Shown piece by piece: positions 3,168 to 20,613 of a stretch of 23,189 bases of DNA. This DNA is from a virus. The stretch spans positions 1-23,189 of the IMG/VR virus record IMGVR_UViG_3300025120_007721; one strand, given 5' to 3'. Position 1 is the stretch's first letter, and every line of letters starts with the position of its first letter. The translations under genes and the position numbers were made by a program. The notes below the pieces were generated by a model, which saw nothing but the letters and a program-made list of their open reading frames with translations, was not told the origin of the DNA and did not search any database.

Positions 3168-3496
3168 TGAGTTTAGACAAGTTAGTATCCAAAATCAGGA
3201 CATATACGCCGTTCGTAACACCTGAATATGAGTTGTATGTTGTAAATGGCTTGTATTGTAGGTTCGGCGCCAACACTCTCAGGAAATACAAGTTCAAGTT
3301 CCCAGAGGATATTGATGGAAGATCTGTTAAACTTATTTATCGGACAACATATTCTGGCAAACTACATTATTGGGATTATACAAACAACTACCCCGGCCAC
3401 GTCAGAGAAGATAGCGATGTTCGTCCAATAACCAAAGACCAAGAGGCAGTTTTGACCAAGATTTTAGAAGACTTTATCAACAGCGAGAAAGAGTAA
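3167..3496 (+). CDS. Small protein of unknown function
   Basis: 109 residues. The start ATG shares a base with the previous stop codon, typical of coupled phage genes. The middle is rich in aromatic residues and basic strands (YELYVVNGLYCRFG, KYKFKFPED, LHYWDYTNNYPGH), suggesting a small beta-rich fold, and the C-terminus is an acidic helix. No catalytic motif, signal peptide or membrane segment is visible. I do not recognise the family. Confidence 0.72.
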   Translation: MSLDKLVSKIRTYTPFVTPEYELYVVNGLYCRFGANTLRKYKFKFPEDIDGRSVKLIYRTTYSGKLHYWDYTNNYPGHVREDSDVRPITKDQEAVLTKILEDFINSEKE

Positions 3497-3714
3497 TGTG
3501 GGAACTGTGGCAATGGGATGGCCGATATATTAAAGGCAAGAAACTAAAAAGGTCCAAAACTAAGCAAACTGTTATGAACCACGCTAAAAAGCATATGGAA
3601 TATGATAGGATTGTAAAGGGGGGCAAAAAGGGTGAGTTTTTCTTTGAAGACAAAGAAGGCCGACCCGTAGGTATGTTGATAGAGAGGCAAGATGCGAAAG
3701 AAACTAAGAAATGA
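3496..3714 (+). CDS. Small basic protein of unknown function
   Basis: 72 residues starting MWELWQWDGRYIKGKK. The start shares one base with the preceding stop. The protein is strongly basic in its first half (KGKKLKRSKTK) and ends in a strand-turn-strand FFFEDKEGRPVGMLI. It might bind nucleic acid, but only because of charge. Its 3' end overlaps the next small gene by 23 bases. Confidence 0.65.
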   Translation: MWELWQWDGRYIKGKKLKRSKTKQTVMNHAKKHMEYDRIVKGGKKGEFFFEDKEGRPVGMLIERQDAKETKK

Positions 3715-3820
3715 GTTGGTGGCACTCACACTAGCCAGAGAAATTACAAAACTGGTTATAGGAGCAGCAATTGCAGTAACCATAACACTTTTAGTGTTTA
3801 AATATTTAATTTGGAGTTAA
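3692..3820 (+). CDS. 42-residue single-pass membrane protein
   Basis: This short frame fills what would otherwise be a 107-base gap before the glutaredoxin gene. It starts at ATG 3692, with GAGAGG at 3682-3687 placed 4 bases upstream, and stops at TAA 3818-3820. The N-terminus is basic and polar (MRKKLRNE), followed by one hydrophobic helix at about residues 21-41 (LVIGAAIAVTITLLVF). The positive-inside rule predicts a cytoplasmic N-terminus. The good ribosome site and the exact fit to the gap support a real gene. Function unknown. Confidence 0.6.
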   Translation: MRKKLRNELVALTLAREITKLVIGAAIAVTITLLVFKYLIWS

Positions 3821-3821
3821 T

Positions 3822-4145
3822 ATGTTAGCAGAAAGACCAGTATTTAAAATATATATCAAGGATGGATGTCCTTATTGTGATAAAGCACGCGATTTTATTT
3901 TGCACGAAATGCAAATGTCGCTTCATACGATTGATATCACAAGGGATCCTCATATGAGAGAGATGATCATCGAAGACACAGGACAAAAGACATTGCCTGC
4001 TATCTTCCTTGGTGGTGTGTTCCTCGGTGGATGTGATGATATGATTAAATCTTATGAGGACGGCGAGCTAGAACTAATGGCCCTCCGCGAAGAGAACGCT
4101 ATTCTCAAAGGCGTGATTAGTAATGTTAGGAAAAGTGTAAATTGA
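3822..4145 (+). CDS. Glutaredoxin with C-terminal helical extension
   Basis: A small thiol-disulfide oxidoreductase, likely an electron donor for the phage ribonucleotide reductase. Seen: a beta strand FKIYIKDG, the active site CPYC at residues 16-19, the cis-proline motif TLPAIF (57-62) and the GGCDDM glutathione-binding turn (69-74). That core of about 85 residues is classical. After it a charged helix (LELMALREENAILKGVI) extends the protein to 107 residues and may form a coiled coil. GGAG at 3812-3815 precedes the ATG. The stop overlaps the next gene, which begins with TTG, by 4 bases. Confidence 0.93.
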   Translation: MLAERPVFKIYIKDGCPYCDKARDFILHEMQMSLHTIDITRDPHMREMIIEDTGQKTLPAIFLGGVFLGGCDDMIKSYEDGELELMALREENAILKGVISNVRKSVN

Positions 4146-4585
4146 AAGCCACTCTTACCAAGGCGATCGTAGGTGGGGCAACCATAAGTTTTGTTCCATC
4201 TATAATCGTTGGCTGGTTGGCCAACACTTTCCCGAGTATTGCACCAAAAGAGCTACAGACTGTATCTGACTTCTTTGGTTCGGGTATTGGCCCGCTACAA
4301 CTAATGGTTTTCGCCATTATTGTGTTCGTTATTCCGCCAATAGAGGAAATACTGTTTAGAGGCTGGTTGTGGAAGATGTGCAGGTGGAAGATAAACCCCT
4401 ACTGGACGTGGATTATTACTTCGCTTATTTTCGCCGCAGTCCACGCTGAACCACTACATATTTTAGGGCTACTTCCACTTAGTTTTTTCTTGGGTTGGTT
4501 ACGAAAAGAAACCGGCGGTATTGAGTATTCTACGATCGCACACATTACAAATAACGCTGTGGCTTGTCTATTGATGATTATTTAA
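4142..4585 (+). CDS. CPBP-family intramembrane metalloprotease (CAAX protease-like)
   Basis: 147 residues, mostly hydrophobic with about four membrane segments. The three family motifs are all visible and in order: EExxxR as E68-E69-ILF-R73, FxxxH as F97-AAV-H101, and HxxxN as H134-ITN-N138. These supply the Glu and His residues that hold the catalytic metal within the membrane in Rce1/Abi-type enzymes. The start is TTG at 4142, overlapping the glutaredoxin stop as ttga; AGGA at 4128-4131 is the nearest ribosome site. The protein is shorter than many bacterial members (200-300), keeping mainly the catalytic core. In bacteria such proteins process peptides, protect against bacteriocins or act in quorum signalling. 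In a phage the target is unknown; a host membrane protein or another phage product are both possible. Confidence 0.82.
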   Translation: MKATLTKAIVGGATISFVPSIIVGWLANTFPSIAPKELQTVSDFFGSGIGPLQLMVFAIIVFVIPPIEEILFRGWLWKMCRWKINPYWTWIITSLIFAAVHAEPLHILGLLPLSFFLGWLRKETGGIEYSTIAHITNNAVACLLMII

Positions 4586-4593
4586 AGGATAAA

Positions 4594-5457
4594 ATGAAGT
4601 TAGATAGGCACATTTATGAGAAAAACGAAATCGTTATTGGTGGCTGTCTATCCTCTCTCCTTCACGCATACAAAAACAACATACCAGTTATTTTTGTTAA
4701 TCCAAAACCTCCCTTTCGCTACGACAAGATAGAAAGCGAGTATGATTTAAGTTTCCTTGGTCTCGAACCATTTGAGATGTATTATCAGCGTCAAGTGTGG
4801 GAGAGGCTGCTGTTTTTACTGGGTCTGTCTGGCAATCTGCCACTTTCTAATAATGCAGCAGGTTTGAGAGTTGTTGATAACCTATTAACAGTTACAACCG
4901 CGAACCACAGAGTTATTAAGTTTGAGTTCAATAAACTAATAATCTTTGATGACGAGGGGATCTCCGGATTACCTATGATGTCAGGCCAAATAGCAGGCAA
5001 AAACAGAGTTATTGACTGGGTAAATGTTAGAAGCGGCTGTTCGCATTCACATAACGAGCTAAACTCAGGTGATGACTTTGTGAACAAGATAATCTTTTAC
5101 CCGTCCGACAGAAGCGACAACAAAAACCTAAAAGACTTAGTTTCTATCTCTTATCTCACTGATGAACAACTACAAGACCACGACTACTCAGATACGATGG
5201 TCAGATTCAAAGTTAAGAAAATGATGAAAGCAGCCGGCATCCGTGGTGCAAGAAACGGACGAGATGTCAAAAACCCTAATAAGTACAAGTATTATGCCGT
5301 TAGGGTTGAACCTGCCGAGAGGGTGGTTGAGAAAGATGTTAAAACATACTATGAACCAGACGAAAGATTTGAGTTCCGCTATGATGAAGTATTTGACCTT
5401 ATAAAAGACCCCAAGAAACCGCCTGACTACTTAGGCATATTAAGCGAGATCCTATGA
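4594..5457 (+). CDS. Unknown protein with a possible Rossmann-like N-terminus
   Basis: 287 residues from ATG 4594, chosen because AAAGGA (4584-4589) lies 4 bases upstream; an upstream TTG at 4564 lies inside the previous gene. The N-terminus EIVIGGCLSSLLHAYKNN followed by IPVIFVNPKPP has the strand, Gly-rich turn, helix, strand order of a dinucleotide- or cofactor-binding Rossmann fold, but GGCLS is not a standard GxGxxG. The middle has alternating strands, and the C-terminus is basic (RGARNGRDVKNPNKYKYY). I have an impression of similar proteins in marine viral genomes with no assigned function. It is followed with a 4-base overlap by a nucleotidyltransferase-like gene and then dnaE. Confidence 0.78.
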   Translation: MKLDRHIYEKNEIVIGGCLSSLLHAYKNNIPVIFVNPKPPFRYDKIESEYDLSFLGLEPFEMYYQRQVWERLLFLLGLSGNLPLSNNAAGLRVVDNLLTVTTANHRVIKFEFNKLIIFDDEGISGLPMMSGQIAGKNRVIDWVNVRSGCSHSHNELNSGDDFVNKIIFYPSDRSDNKNLKDLVSISYLTDEQLQDHDYSDTMVRFKVKKMMKAAGIRGARNGRDVKNPNKYKYYAVRVEPAERVVEKDVKTYYEPDERFEFRYDEVFDLIKDPKKPPDYLGILSEIL

Positions 5458-6299
5458 CGACACACCTTGCCGGCATTGTTCCAGTTGTAACAAAACAAAT
5501 GGATTTTCAGTTAGACTGGCACGACTGTCTGATGCCCATCGCACCTAACTTTTATGCTATTGAAAGGGCAGTTTTAGAGTGTGCTTATGCAGGTTGCAAG
5601 ACCATCTGGATTATAGCCAACGACGACACAACACCGCTCGTTAGGCACCGTATTGGTGATTTTGTACAAGACCCAGTATATTTAAAGCGCAAATCAAGGT
5701 TTCCGTCGCAACAGAGACAACAAATACCTATCTTTTATGTACCAATCGCTTCAAATCACAGCAATAAAGCCAACTGTATCTCTTGGACTATCCTGTTTGG
5801 AGCCAAAACAGCATTAGAAATAGGAAATACAATCAGTAAATGGGTATCACCGAGTAAATACTATGTTTCATTCCCATACTCTGTGTATCCAGCGGAGGCG
5901 GTAAGACCGTCAAGGCAAGATATTTCTAATCATGACTTCTTTTTGACATTTAAAGAAAAATCTTTTAAAACTAATGATATGCTTGGTTTTACCTTTAATA
6001 ACGAGCACCTAATAAAAATTCTAGATGTGTTCAGAGACACAGAAAACAGTTTTTTGTTAGGGGACAACCTGTCAAATGAAGAAGTTTTCTTTGAGAACAA
6101 CTTTACGCTTGACAAAGCCTTTGGTCGTGTTATATTAGATACTGATGATGGGGTTAGTGTTCCTTGGTTCTATCCAATAGACAGTTGGGACGCTTATTGT
6201 AAATATCTGGCATCCGAGGAAAAGTCGTCCATACGACACCCCGGAAAACTAGTTATGTCCTATCGAGAATTTAATCCAGTGGGGGAAGATAATGAGTAA
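5454..6299 (+). CDS. Possible nucleotidyltransferase-like protein (GT-A type)
   Basis: 281 residues. The start LAGIVPVV, then CLMPIAPN (residues 25-32), AIERAVLECAYAGCKTIWIIAND (about 35-57) and a later LGDN (about 198-201) follow the layout of sugar-phosphate nucleotidyltransferases: N-terminal loop, product-limiting P, helix ending in AGC, then a strand. The usual GxGTRLxP signature loop and Lys are not clearly present, so catalysis is uncertain. It overlaps the gene before by 4 bases and dnaE after it by 8. A promoter-like sequence (6109-6136) lies within its 3' part. A role linked to DNA replication or modification is only suggested by position. Confidence 0.72.
   Translation: MTTHLAGIVPVVTKQMDFQLDWHDCLMPIAPNFYAIERAVLECAYAGCKTIWIIANDDTTPLVRHRIGDFVQDPVYLKRKSRFPSQQRQQIPIFYVPIASNHSNKANCISWTILFGAKTALEIGNTISKWVSPSKYYVSFPYSVYPAEAVRPSRQDISNHDFFLTFKEKSFKTNDMLGFTFNNEHLIKILDVFRDTENSFLLGDNLSNEEVFFENNFTLDKAFGRVILDTDDGVSVPWFYPIDSWDAYCKYLASEEKSSIRHPGKLVMSYREFNPVGEDNE
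6109..6136 (+). promoter_or_regulatory. Internal sigma70-type promoter P5 upstream of dnaE
   Basis: TTGACA (6109-6114) and TATATT (6131-6136) are spaced 16 bp apart, with GTGT before the -10 box and GC before the -35 box, as in P3 and P4. It lies inside the preceding coding region, about 155 bases before the dnaE start. A CAAAG-C-CTTTG palindrome (6113-6123) overlaps the -35 box. Confidence 0.55.
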
Positions 6300-9200
6300 G
6301 ATTGCGTTTGTAGGTTTACACGCACACAGTGTGGCCGGTTCTATTTTTGATGGGCTTGGCTATCCACAAGAACATATGGACTTTGCATATGAAAACGGTA
6401 TGGATGCGCTTGCGCTGACAGATCACGGCAATATGAATGGTCTAGCGTGGCAAGTTTTGCACGCCAAGAAGATGAAGGCTGATGGCAAAGTGTTTAAGCC
6501 TATCTTTGGTTGTGAGGCATACTTTGTGCCGTCTATACCTGAGTGGCGCGAAGACTATGATAAGATTATGCAGGACAAGAAAGCTGCACGGGCTGCTAAG
6601 AAGGAAGAAACTTCTGGCGCAACAGTTGAGGATGAGGGTGCTTCTAAGAAAGCTGCTCGTAACATTCTTAATCGCCGACGCCACCTTGTCCTTCTAGTCC
6701 AGAACCAGACCGGTCTAAACAACTTGTTCAAACTTATTTCTGAGTCTTACCAGTCTGAGAACTTCTATCGCTATCCGCGAATGGACTTTGATCTGTTGGA
6801 GAAGTATAATGAGGGCATCATTGCGTCCTCTGCGTGTCTTGGAGGCGTTTATGCTGGCTGCTATTGGGAGAACCGAGACCAAGGCGAAGAAGCCGTCTTA
6901 GATGCAATGAGAGCCGTTACAGAGCGTATGGTTGATATCTTTGATGATCGCTGGTATGGTGAGCTACAGTGGAATAACATCCCCGAGCAGCACGAACTTA
7001 ACAAGTATATTATTCAGGTGTGCAAAGAGTATAATGTTCAGATGATCTCTACAGCAGATTCTCATTATCCAAACCCTGATGCTTGGCGCGACCGTGAGCT
7101 TTACAAGCGTCTTGGCTGGCTTGGCAAGGGTCGTCCCTCTTGGGGCGGTGATGGCGAGTTGCCCATCGACGTTGACGAGATTGGCTATGAACTTTATCCA
7201 AAGAACGGCGACCAGATGTGGGAGTCTTATAAGAAGTATTCTAAGTCCTGTGATGTAGAGTATGATGACCAGCTAGTCTATGACTCGTTGACCACCACAC
7301 ACTTTATTGCACACGAACGCATTGAGTCGTTTATGCCCGATAACACAGTCCGCCTGCCTGACTTCGTGATTCCGGTTGGTGAGACAGCAGACTCTGCCCT
7401 TCGTAAGTTCTGTTTTGAAGGCTTGAGATCCAAGAACCTGCACAGCGACGATGAATATACAGATCGTCTGGAGCACGAGCTTTCTGTTATCGCAGACCGT
7501 GGCTTCTCAAAGTATTTCTTAACTATGAACGAGATTGCTACCATCACCAACGAGGTGATGCTGACAGGCCCCGGTCGTGGTTCGGCTGCTGGTTCTCTGG
7601 TTGCTTATGCTTTGGACATCACACAAGTTGATCCTCTCAAGTATGGACTACAGTTTGCTCGTTTCCTTCGGGCTGATGCAACGGACTACCCAGACATTGA
7701 CTATGATGTAGCCGAGCCGATGGAACTGAAAGAACTTCTAGTTGATAAGTGGGGCAGCGATGTTGTCGCTCCGATCTCTAACTGGAACACTCTTCAATTG
7801 AAATCTCTTATCAAGGACATTTCTAAACTTTATGATATCCCTTTCCAAGAGGTTAACGCCGTTACTGGTAAGATGATGTTTGAGGCCACCGTTGCTGCTA
7901 AGAAGAAGCACGGTATCAAGGCTGGTGTGTATGTGCCGACATTTGAGGAAGTAAAAGAGTTCTCAACAACTCTTAGGTCATTCTTGGCCAAGTATCCAAA
8001 TGTTGCGGTTCACGTTGATGCTCTCTATGGACAAGTCCGATCCTGTTCCCGTCACGCTGGTGGCGTTGTGATTGCAGAAGATCTAGACCGCCATATGCCA
8101 CTTATCTCCTCCAAGGATGTGCGTCAAACGCCTTGGTCGGAGGGACAAAACGTCCGTCATCTAGAGCCTATGGGCTTTATCAAGTTTGACCTTCTGGGAC
8201 TCTCTACACTCCGTATGATTGAAGGTGCCATCCGGCACGTTCTCAAGCGTTACGAGGGTATCGAGGATCCATCGTTCAAAGATGTAATGAACTACTATAA
8301 CAGTAAGCTACATCCAGATGTCGTTGATTTCAACGACCAGAAGGTCTATAAATCGGTGTTTCAGAAAGGTAAGTGGGCTGGTGTATTCCAGTTTACTGAA
8401 ACTGGAGCACAGAACCTGTGTAAGCAAGTGCAGCCAAAGAATCTTATTGATATCTCAGCTATCACTTCTATCTTCCGTCCCGGCCCTCTGTCAGCCAATG
8501 TTGACAAAGACTTTGTGAAGACACGCAATGCTCCCGGTATGGTGACTTACATCAACGAGATGCACCGTGAAGTTACCGAGGAAACCAACGGCTTCCTTAT
8601 CTTCCAAGAGCAAATTGCTATGCTTGCACACAAGTTGGGTAAGGATCTAACACTGGATGAGGGTAATATGCTTCGTAAGGTGCTAACTAAGAAAGGCACT
8701 GGCAAGGCAGCAAAGGTCAAGGCAGCATTACACGGTAAGTTTATTGAGGGCTGCTTAGAAAAGAATATGAGTAAGTCTGTTGCTGAACGAATGTGGGAAA
8801 CATTTGAGTATTTCTCCGGTTATGGTTTCAACAAATCACACGCTGTATCTTATTCTATGATTTCGTTCCAGTGTGCTTGGTTGCTAACTTACTATCCAGA
8901 GTGCTGGATGGCAGCGTTCCTTGATAAAGAGCCTGAAACCCGTAAAGAGAAAGCCATTGCGATTGCAAAGCAGTTCGGGTTTGAGATTGAGCCTCTGAAC
9001 ATTAATACTTCTGGCCGAGTCTGGGAGATTAGTGAAGATGGCAAGCGTCTTATTCAACCCCTGTCTTCGCTCAAGGGCCTTGGAGACTCGGCGATTGACC
9101 AGATTTATGTTGGTCGTCCGTTCCATTCTATTGAGGAGTTTCTTTTCAATGAAGAGATGCGTTATTCTAAACTCAATAAGAAGTCACTTGATGTTCTTGT

Positions 9201-10706: not shown

Positions 10707-11738
10707 ATGAGTCAGTTTAAAGTAGATGTAATCGTTGGGTTACAATCAGGAGACGAAGGCAAAGGTAAGATTACCCACCACCTTCTCAAATCAGGAAAGT
10801 ATACACACTGCGTTCGTTATAACGGCGGTGGTAATGCAGGCCACACTATCTACCATAATGGTAAGAAGTTTGTGACCCACTACATTCCAGCAGGTGTGTT
10901 CTTTGGTATTAAGTCTATTATTGGTCCGGGCTGTGTGGTAAACATTAGTAAGTTTTTTCAAGAGATCCGATACTTGAATAACAACGGCATAAAAACAGAT
11001 GGCCTTGTTTACATAGCAGATAACGCGCACATCACTATGGATTCGCACGTCAAAGAAGATTTAAAAGATGAAGAGATTGGCACAACAAAAACAGGCAATG
11101 GCCCAACCTATCGCGATAAGTATTACCGCAAAGGATACAGGGTTCAACAGTTTGACATTTTGTATCCTTACGCTATTGACTTTTATGAAGAGTTTCACGA
11201 ACGCAAACAAGACATTCACGCACTGTTTGAAGGAGCACAAGGTTTTGAACTGGACATTGATTGGGGAGACTACCCATATGTTACATCCAGTCATTGTACT
11301 ACAGCAGGCGCACTTCTAAACGGTATCCCACCACAAGCATTAGACAGGGTTTGGGGTGTCGCAAAGGCATACGAGACTTATGTTGGGACAAAAGAGTTTG
11401 AACCTAAAGAAGAAGTTTTCTCTACGCTTAGGGATCTAGGCTCAGAGTATGGTGCAACTACGGGACGCCCAAGGCAATGCAACTGGATGGACATTAACCG
11501 ATTGAAGCGAGCAGTAAATATTAACGGCGTTCAGTCTTTGGTCATTAACAAGATGGACATCCTTAGAGAACTTGGTCAATGGACCCTGCGTAATGACAAT
11601 GTTACTGTATCGTTTACATCAGAGAAAGATTTTAAAGATTATATTGTTGACCAACTGCCCAACGTGGAAATCTATTTCTCAGGTTCACCGCACGGTTTTA
11701 GCAGCACAGCCTATAATAAAAACAAAGCAGTCGCATAA
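10707..11738 (+). CDS. purA: Adenylosuccinate synthetase family protein, short form (PurA/PurZ superfamily)
   Basis: Ligates aspartate to IMP with GTP, the first step from IMP to AMP; phage relatives named PurZ use dGMP to make 2-aminoadenine nucleotides. Seen: GLQSGDEGKGK (11-21) with the catalytic Asp (D16) and K19; NAGHT (43-47) with the general acid H46; IGTTKTGNGP (124-133); FEGAQG (174-179); DYPYVTSSHCTTAG (188-201); GATTGRPRQCNW (249-260) with both Arg of the aspartate loop; NKMD (281-284), the GTP-selecting motif. The protein has 343 residues against about 430 in E. coli, so it matches the compact archaeal and phage forms. Retention of Asp16 and NKMD argues for IMP and GTP, that is PurA rather than PurZ, but the size keeps the question open. 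Start ATG 10707 with AGGA 10700-10703. An inverted repeat covers its stop codon. Confidence 0.9.
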   Translation: MSQFKVDVIVGLQSGDEGKGKITHHLLKSGKYTHCVRYNGGGNAGHTIYHNGKKFVTHYIPAGVFFGIKSIIGPGCVVNISKFFQEIRYLNNNGIKTDGLVYIADNAHITMDSHVKEDLKDEEIGTTKTGNGPTYRDKYYRKGYRVQQFDILYPYAIDFYEEFHERKQDIHALFEGAQGFELDIDWGDYPYVTSSHCTTAGALLNGIPPQALDRVWGVAKAYETYVGTKEFEPKEEVFSTLRDLGSEYGATTGRPRQCNWMDINRLKRAVNINGVQSLVINKMDILRELGQWTLRNDNVTVSFTSEKDFKDYIVDQLPNVEIYFSGSPHGFSSTAYNKNKAVA

Positions 11739-12378: not shown

Positions 12379-12833
12379 TCCTCGAATATCATTCGCTGCC
12401 GCATTGCGAGCATAAGCCAGTCCGAGCTAACCCCTCGGATGCTGGCCTAGACCTTCGGTTCAACCCTGTGAATGGTGGGACTCAAGTCCTAGCAGCAGGC
12501 CAGAGCGCCATCTTGCCAACAGGTCTAAAATTTGGTGTCCCACACGGCTACATGATTCAGATTATGAACCGTAGCGGAAATGCAGCCAAGAAGCAACTTA
12601 TGGTTGGAGCCTGTGTGGTTGACTCTGGGTATAATGGAGAAGTCTTCGTGAATCTTCATAACATCGGTTCAAAACCACAATCGATTAGCTCCGGCGACAA
12701 GATCGCACAAGCAGTAGTAATCCCCGTTGTGCCTGTAAGGTTCTTGGAGACTAAGAATGACAACCTGTATGAATGGGCTCCTATTACTATTTCTGATCGT
12801 GGGGCTGGCGCGCTTGGTAGCACAGGGCGATGA
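12375..12833 (+). CDS. dut: dUTP diphosphatase (trimeric dUTPase)
   Basis: Hydrolyses dUTP to dUMP, which keeps uracil out of DNA and supplies ThyX. 152 residues with all five trimeric dUTPase motifs in order: I, DAGLDL (22-27); II, NRSGNAAKK (65-73), usually PRSGLA; III, GACVVDSGYNGEV (78-90) with the catalytic Asp83; IV, GDKIAQAV (107-114); V, RGAGALGSTG (142-151), the P-loop-like tail. The start is TTG 12375, overlapping the preceding TGA, with GAGG at 12365-12368. The end overlaps the TadE-like gene by 4 bases. Confidence 0.95.
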   Translation: MILEYHSLPHCEHKPVRANPSDAGLDLRFNPVNGGTQVLAAGQSAILPTGLKFGVPHGYMIQIMNRSGNAAKKQLMVGACVVDSGYNGEVFVNLHNIGSKPQSISSGDKIAQAVVIPVVPVRFLETKNDNLYEWAPITISDRGAGALGSTGR

Positions 12834-13273
12834 TGAGGATGACATCTTATGGTAGACGGGGCAGTTACGCTGTAGAGTTCGCGCTAATCTTGCCGATCTT
12901 CTTACTTCTTATCTTTGGAGGCATTGAGCTTCTTTGGTATTCAGTAGAGACAGGCAGGGTTACATCGGCTCTTACAGCGGGGTGTAGAGGTGGAGCGGCA
13001 ACAGGTATTAATATCTTTACCGATCCCTACACCCGCGCTGCTGATTACATCAGCGAGACTGTATCCAGAAATAGTAGATTTGATTGCTTGGCAGGAGACT
13101 GCTTTATTGTTATTTCAGAATCTGATTTAACAGCATCAGATGTTATTTGGATGGATTGCAAAGTAGAAGTGAATTACCCCCCACTAACTAACTTTGTCCC
13201 CGGCCTACCTACCCTTATCACAGCCACATCATCACAACCAATCACTCGACCCTTGGAGGAAGAAGATGAATAG
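12830..13273 (+). CDS. TadE-like pseudopilin
   Basis: 147 residues with the organisation of TadE/TadF-family minor pilins. A short basic leader ends in RRG (residues 9-11), followed by SYAVEFALILPIFLLLIF. A type IV prepilin peptidase would cut after G11, which puts Glu at position +5 (E16), the hallmark of such substrates. The hydrophobic helix covers about residues 17-37. The periplasmic part has a conserved-looking helix ETGRVTSALTAG, four Cys (52, 86, 91, 110) able to form disulfides, and a strand CKVEVNYPP as in TadE. In bacteria these proteins serve tight-adherence pili and are processed by TadV-like peptidases. No other Tad gene is in the window. The gene overlaps dut by 4 bases and the next gene by 8, so it is a genuine member of this operon. 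Its job in a phage is unknown. Confidence 0.8.
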   Translation: MMRMTSYGRRGSYAVEFALILPIFLLLIFGGIELLWYSVETGRVTSALTAGCRGGAATGINIFTDPYTRAADYISETVSRNSRFDCLAGDCFIVISESDLTASDVIWMDCKVEVNYPPLTNFVPGLPTLITATSSQPITRPLEEEDE

Positions 13274-13550
13274 AGAACAAAGACGGTCTGCTGTAAAGCA
13301 ATCCAAGAAAGATGGCACCGGAGAGATGCAGGAAAAAATCATGCTGTTTGGTAAGTTAGAGGACGAGTGCCTAACCTGCCAAAAGCCATTTAATAAAAAA
13401 GACAAAGAAATGGTTATGTCTTGGCAGGTCGTGGTAAGGCAGGAAGAAGAAAAAGTCAATCTTTACTGTCCAGAGTGCTGGGACAAGGCAATCCAGATTA
13501 CAGAGGATTTCATGAAAAGAGTAGAGGAACGTAATGAAGACAGCCCTTAG
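13266..13550 (+). CDS. Small zinc-knuckle protein
   Basis: 94 residues from ATG 13266, with GGAGGAAG just upstream; a longer frame starting at 13194 lies inside the TadE-like gene. The basic N-terminus MNREQRRSAVKQSKK is followed by C35-LT-C38 and C68-PE-C71, two CxxC pairs 30 residues apart, which should bind one zinc ion. Between them is a strand MSWQVVVRQEEEKVNLY. This fits a zinc-ribbon fold that might contact nucleic acid or protein. I recall similar phage proteins without known function. It overlaps guaB by 17 bases. Confidence 0.78.
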   Translation: MNREQRRSAVKQSKKDGTGEMQEKIMLFGKLEDECLTCQKPFNKKDKEMVMSWQVVVRQEEEKVNLYCPECWDKAIQITEDFMKRVEERNEDSP

Positions 13551-14544
13551 TTTTGATGATGTGCTGCTTGTGCCTCAATACTCAGAGATCTTTACCCGCA
13601 AGGACATTAAGATTCAGCAGAAGTTAAAAGGATTGCATCCACTCAGATTACCTATTATCTCTAGTCCAATGGATACTGTGACGGAGGATAGGATGGCCTG
13701 TGCTATGCACAAAGAGGGTGGCGTCGGTGTTATTCATCGCTACAACACGGTTGTGGAGCAGGCGAGTATGGTTGCAGAGGTCCGTATGTCTGGTCATCAA
13801 ATTGGCGCCGCGATCGGAGTAGGTGACACTTCTGTTCAACGCGCCAAAGCACTTGTTGAGGCTGGAGTTAATTTTCTTTGTATTGATGTAGCACACGGAC
13901 ATCACGCAAAGGTAAGATACACACTTCAAGTATTGAAAAACACATTTGGTGACGAAGTTCACATCATGGCTGGTAACGTCGCGACACTAGAAGCGTTCAA
14001 TGACCTAGCAGACTGGGGTGCTGACTCTATCCGCGTAGGCATTGGTGGAGGCTCTATTTGCTCCACACGGATCCAGACAGGCCACGGCATGCCAACCCTT
14101 CAGTCGGTTATGGATTGTGCCGAGTCAGATAGAGATGTAACACTTATCGCTGACGGAGGCATCCGAACCAGTGGTGACATTGTAAAAGCACTAGCAGCAG
14201 GAGCAGACTTTGTAATGTTAGGCTCGCTTCTGGCAGGAACAGATGAGACACCGGGCCAAGTTATTAATACTAAAGACGGTAGAGAAAAGATCTACCGAGG
14301 TATGGCAAGCAAAGAAGCGCAAAGAAGCTGGCGTAATAGAGTTTCATCCATTGAAGGTGTGTCGCACACAGTGCCACTTAAAGGACCAGTAGCAGATGTT
14401 TTGGATGAACTACGAACCGGTATTACAAGCGGCATCTCTTATTCTGGTGCTGATAGTGTTTTATCGCTTCAGTCCAGAGCGACCTTTGTGCAGCAAACAC
14501 AATCGGGACAGGTAGAAAGTTCCACACACATTAAGAGAATCTAA
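13534..14544 (+). CDS. guaB: IMP dehydrogenase / GMP reductase family enzyme without CBS domains
   Basis: A TIM-barrel oxidoreductase acting on IMP or GMP. Seen: [14 protein letters not shown] (6-19), [16 protein letters not shown] (40-55), GGVGVIHRY (62-70), IDVAHGHH (117-124), GNVAT (147-151), [15 protein letters not shown] (169-183) with the catalytic Cys176 and Thr178, [13 protein letters not shown] (204-216), [13 protein letters not shown] (229-241) and YRGMASKEA (254-262). Wording in the barrel is closer to IMPDH. The length, 336, and the lack of the Bateman (CBS) domains resemble GMP reductase. The Arg-Tyr flap pair needed for IMPDH hydrolysis is not obvious ([11 protein letters not shown], 265-275). 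Direction is therefore open: IMP to XMP, or GMP to IMP. The neighbouring purA-like gene uses the same IMP node. The ATG is preceded by GAGGAA. Confidence 0.88.
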
Positions 14545-19059: not shown

Positions 19060-20613
19060 TTGTCTAAGAGTTATGACGCGGGGTCTTCGTTAAGTCAGAA
19101 GATCATCGCTGGTGTTGATAAACTTGCTGATAACGTTGCTTCAACGCTTGGCCCCCGGGGGCGTAATGTAATCATTAAACAAGCAGGAAAGCGACCTATT
19201 ATCACAAAAGACGGCGTAACAGTCGCAGAGTTTGTGGACCTTGACGATCCCTTTGAGGACGTCGGAGCACAGATCATTAAGCAAGCCTCACGGCAGACCA
19301 ACTCGGTTGCTGGTGATGGTACTACAACCGCTACAGTGCTCGCTAGAGCTATCCTGCACGGCGCACAGCGCCACATTGTGGCTGGTGCATCACCTATTGA
19401 CGTGAAGCGACAGATTGACGCAACCGTTGAAGAGTATGTACAGAACCTAAAAGATATGGCCAGACCTATCCAAAGCGAAGAAGACATTGCACATATTGCA
19501 ACCATCTCCGCGAACAATGATGAAGCTATTGGAAAGCTGGTTGCAAAAGCAGTTGACTGTGTTGGCAAGGACGGCTCTATCTCCGTAGAGGAAGCCCGTT
19601 CCCTAGAGACAAGTCTTGATCTGACCGAGGGCTTTCGTTTTGATTCTGGTTATACGGCGACAGCGTTTATCAATGACGAACGCCGTGGAGCAGTTGTGTA
19701 CGAAGATCCTCTTATTCTTGTCGCAGACTGTAAGATTGATAAAGTGGAAGACATTCTACCAGTTCTTGAAACAGTCGCAAGAGAAGGGAGACCGTTGATT
19801 ATCGTCGCCTCTGACATCGAAGGGCAAGCACACGCAGCACTCATTATGAATATGATGCGTGGTACTATGAAGATCGCAGCAATCAAGGCTCCTCGTTATG
19901 GTGAGGAGCGCAGGAACATCCTTAAAGACTTATGTCTCTCTACAGGAGCAGCATACACAACTAAGTCCGCAGGTCTTAAACTTAAAGACGTGAAGCTGGA
20001 ACATCTTGGAACTTGTAAGAAGATTGATGTTCTAAAAGGCTGGACCACGATCGTCGGTGGTAAAGGAAACTATGAAGATGTCGATACCCAGATTGATAAT
20101 CTTAAAGTAGAACTTGAACAAACTGAAAGTCTTCGTGAGTGTGAGCGTATCCAAGAACGGATTACAAGACTTGCATCTGGTGTTGCAGTTATTAAAGTTG
20201 GTGCTGCAACAGAGATTGAGATGATTGAGAAGAAGCATCGTATTGAAGATGCACTTGAAGCAGTGCGAGCAGCACAGTTGGAAGGTATTGTTCCGGGTGG
20301 CGGCGTTGCTCTTGTCCGTGGTAGAAAACACACAAAGGGCTATGGAAAGATTGTCTATAAGGCAGTCGCAGAACCACTACGCCAGATGGCAAAGAACGCT
20401 GGTGAAAGTCCTGATGTAATCTTGGCCATGGTTCAGAGAGCAAAGGGTGACCGAGGTTGGGACTTCAAGGCTGCTAAGATGACTAACATGATTGGTTCTG
20501 GCATTATTGACCCAGTTAAGGTTACAATCACAGCCTTACAGAACGCAGCATCAGCAGCAGGAACTTTGATCACTACCGATCACGCTATTATTGAGGCTGA
20601 AGATGGAAGTTAA
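19060..20613 (+). CDS. groEL: Chaperonin GroEL
   Basis: An ATP-driven double-ring folding machine. 517 residues from a TTG start at 19060, with GAGAGGTG at 19048-19055. The ATP site is intact: TLGPRGRNV (29-37), ITKDGVTV with D51, AGDGTTTATVLA (84-95) with D86, IEDAL with D397, and VPGGGVAL (411-418). The apical domain is present (residues about 190-375). Of the eight E. coli GroES- and substrate-binding positions, Y199, F204, L234, L237 are kept, V263 and V264 become Ile and Met, but Y203 becomes Ala and L259 becomes His. The protein stops at EAEDGS, lacking the Gly-Gly-Met tail of host GroEL. It has its own promoter and heads a six-gene unit. The GroES-like protein at 1442-1717 is the likely lid; host GroES is the alternative. 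Confidence 0.96.
   Translation: MSKSYDAGSSLSQKIIAGVDKLADNVASTLGPRGRNVIIKQAGKRPIITKDGVTVAEFVDLDDPFEDVGAQIIKQASRQTNSVAGDGTTTATVLARAILHGAQRHIVAGASPIDVKRQIDATVEEYVQNLKDMARPIQSEEDIAHIATISANNDEAIGKLVAKAVDCVGKDGSISVEEARSLETSLDLTEGFRFDSGYTATAFINDERRGAVVYEDPLILVADCKIDKVEDILPVLETVAREGRPLIIVASDIEGQAHAALIMNMMRGTMKIAAIKAPRYGEERRNILKDLCLSTGAAYTTKSAGLKLKDVKLEHLGTCKKIDVLKGWTTIVGGKGNYEDVDTQIDNLKVELEQTESLRECERIQERITRLASGVAVIKVGAATEIEMIEKKHRIEDALEAVRAAQLEGIVPGGGVALVRGRKHTKGYGKIVYKAVAEPLRQMAKNAGESPDVILAMVQRAKGDRGWDFKAAKMTNMIGSGIIDPVKVTITALQNAASAAGTLITTDHAIIEAEDGS

Follow-up and report, generated by a model that had tools for sequence, protein, structure and literature searches.

A compact CPBP-family protein gene as a conserved member of a glutaredoxin operon in a phage clade

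Background

What could an intramembrane endopeptidase of the Rce1/CPBP family do for a phage? The question is raised by a 147-residue protein encoded in the DNA analysed here (the window), a stretch of 23,189 nucleotides that constitutes an IMG/VR virus record, IMGVR_UViG_3300025120_007721. The four-helix CPBP domain and the roles of its motifs have been described (PMC11980579, excerpt). A search of the open-access literature yielded one paper, published in 2015, in which phages are reported to encode the CAAX-protease domain; the phages, MyoPhiKZC1 and MyoPhiKZC12, are phiKZ-like and come from eel mucus (PMC4310352, excerpt). These large phages resemble the present case in having a CAAX-domain protein; however, their genomes are phiKZ-like, and they are likened here by description, not by sequence. 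A further paper describes a host CPBP gene that serves as a prophage insertion site (PMC8637289, excerpt), and the part of PMC8537503 considered here concerns the CAAX motif, not the protease. The literature searched yielded no study of what a CPBP protein does in a phage.

Identification of the CPBP protein

The genes discussed below are listed in Table 1. The Pfam profile PF02517 (Rce1-like) matches residues 53-140 of the protein with E 6.9e-19 and 68.4 bits, the curated cut-off being 22.4 bits. The motifs, as defined in PMC3578759 (excerpt), are EExxxR (E68-E69-x-x-x-R73), FxxxH (F97-x-x-x-H101), a variable small-xxx-small motif sxxxs (S114/G118) and HxxxN (H134-x-x-x-N138). The protein was aligned with 15 others from viral contigs, having 17-95% identity to it; L108 and other near-duplicates were excluded, as was L032, because its protein has an undetermined residue. 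Motifs 1, 2 and 4 are fixed in all 16 sequences, and the nine invariant columns are P65, E68, E69, F72, R73, F97, H101, H134 and N138. The first-pass annotation had proposed a CPBP protein with all three catalytic motifs in 147 residues and had suggested a profile search as a check. Both the Pfam score and the invariant motifs confirm that the product is a true Rce1/CPBP-family protein, and it is more conserved than is evident from the single sequence. The TTG start is supported by the relatives, which start at almost the same column, and by its overlap with the stop codon of the upstream gene.

Table 1. Genes of the window considered in this study
Gene or product	Position	Strand	Remarks
72-aa basic protein, upstream of TM40	3496-3714	+	closest relatives only; no significant family match
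TM40, 42-aa tail-anchored single-TM protein	3692-3820	+	profile matches in relatives; TM scan
Glutaredoxin (CPYC)	3822-4145	+	PF00462, 2.8e-13, 50.3 bits
CPBP/Rce1-like intramembrane endopeptidase gene	4142-4585	+	147 aa, TTG start; Pfam PF02517
Orphan gene P295	4594-5457	+	no Pfam, PHROG or NCBIfam match
Orphan gene P282	5454-6299	+	after P295, before DnaE-type polymerase
Adenylosuccinate-synthetase-like	10707-11738		PurA models, 254-284 bits (below cut-off); PurZ, 123 of 300 bits
TadE-like single-TM protein	12830-13273		PF07811, 3.2e-10
IMP dehydrogenase/GMP reductase-like gene	13534-14544		
GroEL-like chaperonin	19060-20613		phrog_5725, 3.3e-140

Among NCBIfam models, the best score is that of the CPBP domain of NF041647 (ABC_perm_CPBP), which is also the best model for the homologues L121 and L043. 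However, only the C-terminal domain of this model is matched, with 70 bits against a curated cut-off of 435, and the window protein is a stand-alone one, without the ABC-permease part. The next matches are the myxosortase-like MrtS (41.3 bits, cut-off 130) and MrtJ (40.1 bits, cut-off 75). All of these scores are far below the curated cut-offs, and no CTERM-tagged protein was seen. Among PHROGs there is a weak match to the unnamed phrog_28058 (E 1.8e-4, 22.3 bits, residues 56-143), a family without a curated cut-off. A PADLOC search with the protein yielded no family at E <= 1.

Predicted fold

The AlphaFold2 model obtained from the 16-row alignment is all-helical, with pLDDT 89.8 and pTM 0.84; the model from four near-identical rows reached a pLDDT of only 49.3. 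When the former was aligned with 212 PDB chains, the best match was SpdC (6u0o; Z 10.0, 137 residues, 4.1 A), the second was Rce1 (4cad; Z 7.4, 131 residues, 4.1 A) and the third 5a63 chain C, a gamma-secretase subunit (Z 6.1). The alignment tool advises caution with such values, since a helical bundle scoring Z below about 13 may reflect no more than a common arrangement. Foldseek found no match to the model in PDB at E <= 0.001, and a profile search of the solved-structure sequences with the CPBP protein gave none. Among the named entries of a library of viral structures, the model is matched best by CAAX proteases of viruses; giant-virus proteins and gp60 of Bacillus phage G are among them. 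The model has the multiple membrane helices of the family fold, including the core helices found in Rce1. The matches to solved folds lend indirect support to a clustering of the catalytic motifs in one pocket, the other check named in the first-pass annotation.

The resemblance to MmRce1 (PDB 4cad) covers all motifs, the core helices and the fold across 131 residues. The spacings E68-H101 (33) and H134-N138 (4) are the same as in MmRce1, whose corresponding residues we take to be E140, H173, H227 and N231. However, the 4cad chain has 253 residues compared with 147 here, and neither a prenylated CAAX substrate nor a prenyltransferase was noticed in the window. The giant-virus CAAX proteases (Terrestrivirus, Orpheovirus, Hokovirus, Fadolivirus) share the compact CPBP fold with 139-219 aa, but they belong to giant viruses rather than phages and have 16-24% identity.

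Homologues in viral and cellular sequences

Matches to the CPBP protein were found in three of 50,697 phage records, all of them partial with 32-33% identity: two records of one phage, containing gp60 of phage G, and a faecal contig. The phage G protein is itself a phage CPBP, with 33.3% identity over residues 72-146 and a TM-score of 0.78 by query length; however, it is 237 aa long and comes from an unrelated phage. Phage CPBP proteins are thus already known, from phage G and from the phiKZ-like phages of eel mucus, and the window protein joins them.

Three contigs of IMG/VR encode near relatives, whose best segments have identities of 99, 95 and 87%. A scan with the motif pattern produced 14 stretches, some of them chance matches outside the family. 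Identical compact single-domain proteins of 149 aa are encoded in L007, L014 and L018, and another one of 148 aa in L017; those of L006, L011 and L013 are longer or cut off. A scan using the neighbouring ribonucleotide reductase (RNR) gene kept 80 loci, and the motif scan found CPBP in seven of them (L024, L030, L031, L032, L042, L043, L058). Additional CPBP contigs, L108 and L109, came from a profile scan, and a second pattern scan added L121 (223 kb) and L122 (68 kb), both encoding a CPBP protein of 166 aa. A Pfam search of 50 whole related records found PF02517 in nine. In total, three viral groups besides the clade of the window have compact homologues, with lengths of 148-166 aa.

As for a cellular source, a pattern scan of genome_contigs gave one candidate stretch, and no tblastn relative was found among 93 pattern-matched stretches of genome_contigs, the pattern pre-filter being narrow. 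One plasmid match was obtained, partial and with 38.7% identity.

Conserved gene order

By gene order, the clade of the window comprises 12 contigs: the window, L001, L002, L003, L024, L030, L031, L032, L042, L058, L108 and L109. The first-pass annotation had noted the adjacency of the CPBP gene to glutaredoxin, and this neighbourhood recurs in the relatives, as a glutaredoxin profile match lies upstream of CPBP in all 12 contigs. In the window the end of the glutaredoxin gene and the start of the CPBP gene share 4 nt. Five contigs (L003, L030, L031, L042, L109) have a gene for a basic protein of 49-53 aa between the two, and the CPBP start overlaps the stop of the preceding gene. P295 directly follows CPBP in all 11 contigs that reach past it, L002 ending at CPBP. 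The identities of the CPBP, P295 and P282 proteins between the window and other lineages are similar (59, 58 and 60% to L024; 60, 59 and 62% to L030), as expected for joint inheritance. P282 has no match among the 50,697 phage records, and both orphan genes also occur in many further relatives that have RNR but lack CPBP. The CPBP gene is no stray gene but a constant part of an operon in this phage clade. Glutaredoxin was considered as a gene exclusive to CPBP loci and rejected: it is matched in 25 of the 50 related records, 8 of the 12 with CPBP and 17 of the 38 without, and only the adjacency is specific. This adjacency may stem from RNR metabolism rather than from the function of the protease.

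Outside this clade the neighbours are different genes. In L043, which is the same contig as L007, ORFs of 132 and 115 aa precede CPBP. In L121, by reading of the sequence, the neighbours are a 111-aa protein with a C-terminal TM segment and a 262-aa ORF resembling secreted serine proteases. The region 4767-7874 of this 223-kb contig has the 166-aa CPBP flanked by this secreted trypsin-like ORF, with a thioredoxin-like lipoprotein ORF nearby.

That the gene is carried by a phage, as originally proposed, is borne out by the origin of the window as a virus record, by its match to a ClpP-type head-maturation protease (phrog_94, 8.1e-26) and by the terminase of larger related records. When 24 related records were searched, 7 had the terminase (phrog_2), six of the seven being contigs of 141-317 kb; it was seen in none of the 12 CPBP-bearing records, compared with 7 of the 12 others. 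The window also contains an adenylosuccinate-synthetase-like and an IMP dehydrogenase/GMP reductase-like gene, likely phage purine-nucleotide genes, and a GroEL-like chaperonin gene. The collinear record G051 has a GroEL-like ORF too.

Selection and divergence

The ratio dN/dS was counted by the Nei-Gojobori method among the window, L002 and L003; in the genes compared, L001 does not differ from the window. For CPBP it is 0.24 (window-L002), 0.11 (window-L003) and 0.15 (L002-L003); the gene is under purifying selection. The values are 0.05-0.06 for glutaredoxin, 0.04-0.08 for the 72-aa basic protein and 0.38-0.85 for TM40. Since glutaredoxin and TM40 are conserved and have dN/dS below 1 in all non-identical pairs compared, both are real genes.

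The divergence of the window and L002 is uneven along 3600-4585: the identity is 94-95% at 3601-3800, 76-80% at 3901-4200 and 99-100% at 4201-4400, and dS is 1.76 in glutaredoxin compared with 0.07-0.12 in the flanking genes. This mosaic looks like gene-level recombination.

Candidate substrates and partners

The gene for the small membrane protein TM40, which the first-pass annotation had linked to CPBP, is real and occurs in eight of the 12 clade contigs; the linkage fails in the other four. These contigs, L031, L032, L042 and L109, span the whole interval from RNR to CPBP and lack TM40 there, and the other small hydrophobic ORFs of the interval either overlap with known genes or are unsupported by any family match. 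Thus TM40 cannot be a general partner, and it was rejected as an obligate one. One explanation of its linkage is a dedicated phage pair, in which CPBP would mature or degrade TM40 and thereby release or activate a small peptide of the membrane that might act in lysis timing, exclusion or signalling. Its profile matches are confined to CPBP-bearing loci, and it is the sole product with a lone C-terminal TM segment in the scanned stretches of the window, L108, L030 and L024, the fifth scanned stretch, L127, having none. However, the three further groups with CPBP gave no TM40 match at their loci, its selection is looser than that of CPBP, and the two genes might merely share a clade. Together with the four contigs lacking TM40, this makes the dedicated pair unlikely.

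A CTERM-type sorting system was rejected, as TM40 alone has a lone C-terminal TM segment in the five scanned stretches. The TadE-like gene was found in one of the 50 related records besides the window (L019 of another CPBP group, 5329-5712, about 3 kb from CPBP), and both have CPBP. However, the 37-kb CPBP-bearing record G051, collinear with the window, has no TadE, and this pseudopilin was rejected as an obligate substrate.

SLT or amidase genes lie near CPBP in L031, L032 and L042, and G051 contains a candidate endolysin (weak amidase and peptidoglycan-hydrolase matches) about 20 kb from CPBP. A lysis partner is not supported, as SLT genes occur in 2 of the 12 records with CPBP and 13 of the 38 without. 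Among the latter, weak profile matches place an SLT-like gene just upstream of P295 in L056, L057 and, more weakly, L098.

Possible function

The reading that we prefer, and to which we give an even chance, is that of a minimal CPBP glutamic-type endopeptidase, most likely catalytically active, that would reside in the inner membrane of the host and cut a membrane substrate there, perhaps a host protein. It starts from the family, the motifs, the predicted fold, conservation, purifying selection and the overlapping gene order; proteolysis and the roles of residues are inferred from the CPBP family, and the substrate is a guess. The protein would be made in one operon with glutaredoxin, near the RNR, ThyX and DnaE genes, and would sit in the inner membrane of the infected cell. 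E68/E69 and H101 would activate water, and H134 and N138 would form the oxyanion site. During infection it would cut a membrane or membrane-anchored substrate. As the target, a host inner-membrane protein (takeover or exclusion) is preferred over a dedicated phage peptide, because TM40, the one phage-encoded candidate, does not occur in a third of the contigs with CPBP and because no phage membrane gene was found alongside CPBP in all its genomes. Processing of a phage peptide is possible in the contigs that do have TM40.

Two considerations would weigh against activity. Conserved CPBP motifs alone do not prove proteolysis, as the precedent of the Abi-domain protein Abx1 suggests: it regulates the kinase CovS and does not need its putative catalytic residues for that (PMC3578759, excerpt). 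In addition, the best solved match of the predicted fold, SpdC, comes from a complex with SagB that is described as a peptidoglycan release complex. Both proteins are models for a scaffold or regulator that would bind a host sensor kinase or a peptidoglycan-hydrolase complex and cut nothing, and the SLT-like gene upstream of P295 in some CPBP-lacking relatives fits the latter. However, the catalytic-motif residues are all invariant, which speaks against such a role, and SLT genes show no positive association with CPBP; we therefore consider it improbable.

A role in immunity, defence or counter-defence (exclusion of superinfecting phages, self-immunity of the bacteriocin type, cleavage of a defence effector anchored in the membrane) is very unlikely: CPBP proteins are tied to bacteriocin self-immunity, as mentioned in PMC3578759 (excerpt), but PADLOC gave no match, no bacteriocin or defence gene was noticed nearby in the ORF lists, and the 'abortive infection' annotation of the domain is a historical error according to the same source. 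For the latter reason, and given the PADLOC result, the label Abi mentioned for the family in the first description of this locus is not supported.

Implications

Returning to the endopeptidase, a broader version of it is conceivable, although we rate it as doubtful: a family of minimal single-domain intramembrane proteases specific to phages (about 140-166 aa, at least four viral groups, a fixed glutaredoxin operon in one) that would rewire the host inner membrane during infection by cutting host membrane proteins or a phage tail-anchored micro-protein, and would thus constitute a viral step of intramembrane proteolysis dedicated to bacterial hosts. If the protein is active, it would equip phages with regulated proteolysis inside the membrane, and no phage role was found assigned to enzymes of this type in the literature searched. 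Its 147 residues would then be a natural minimum of the CPBP fold, attractive for structural work. The conserved position in an operon, rather than that of accidental cargo, makes the question of the CPBP substrate testable.
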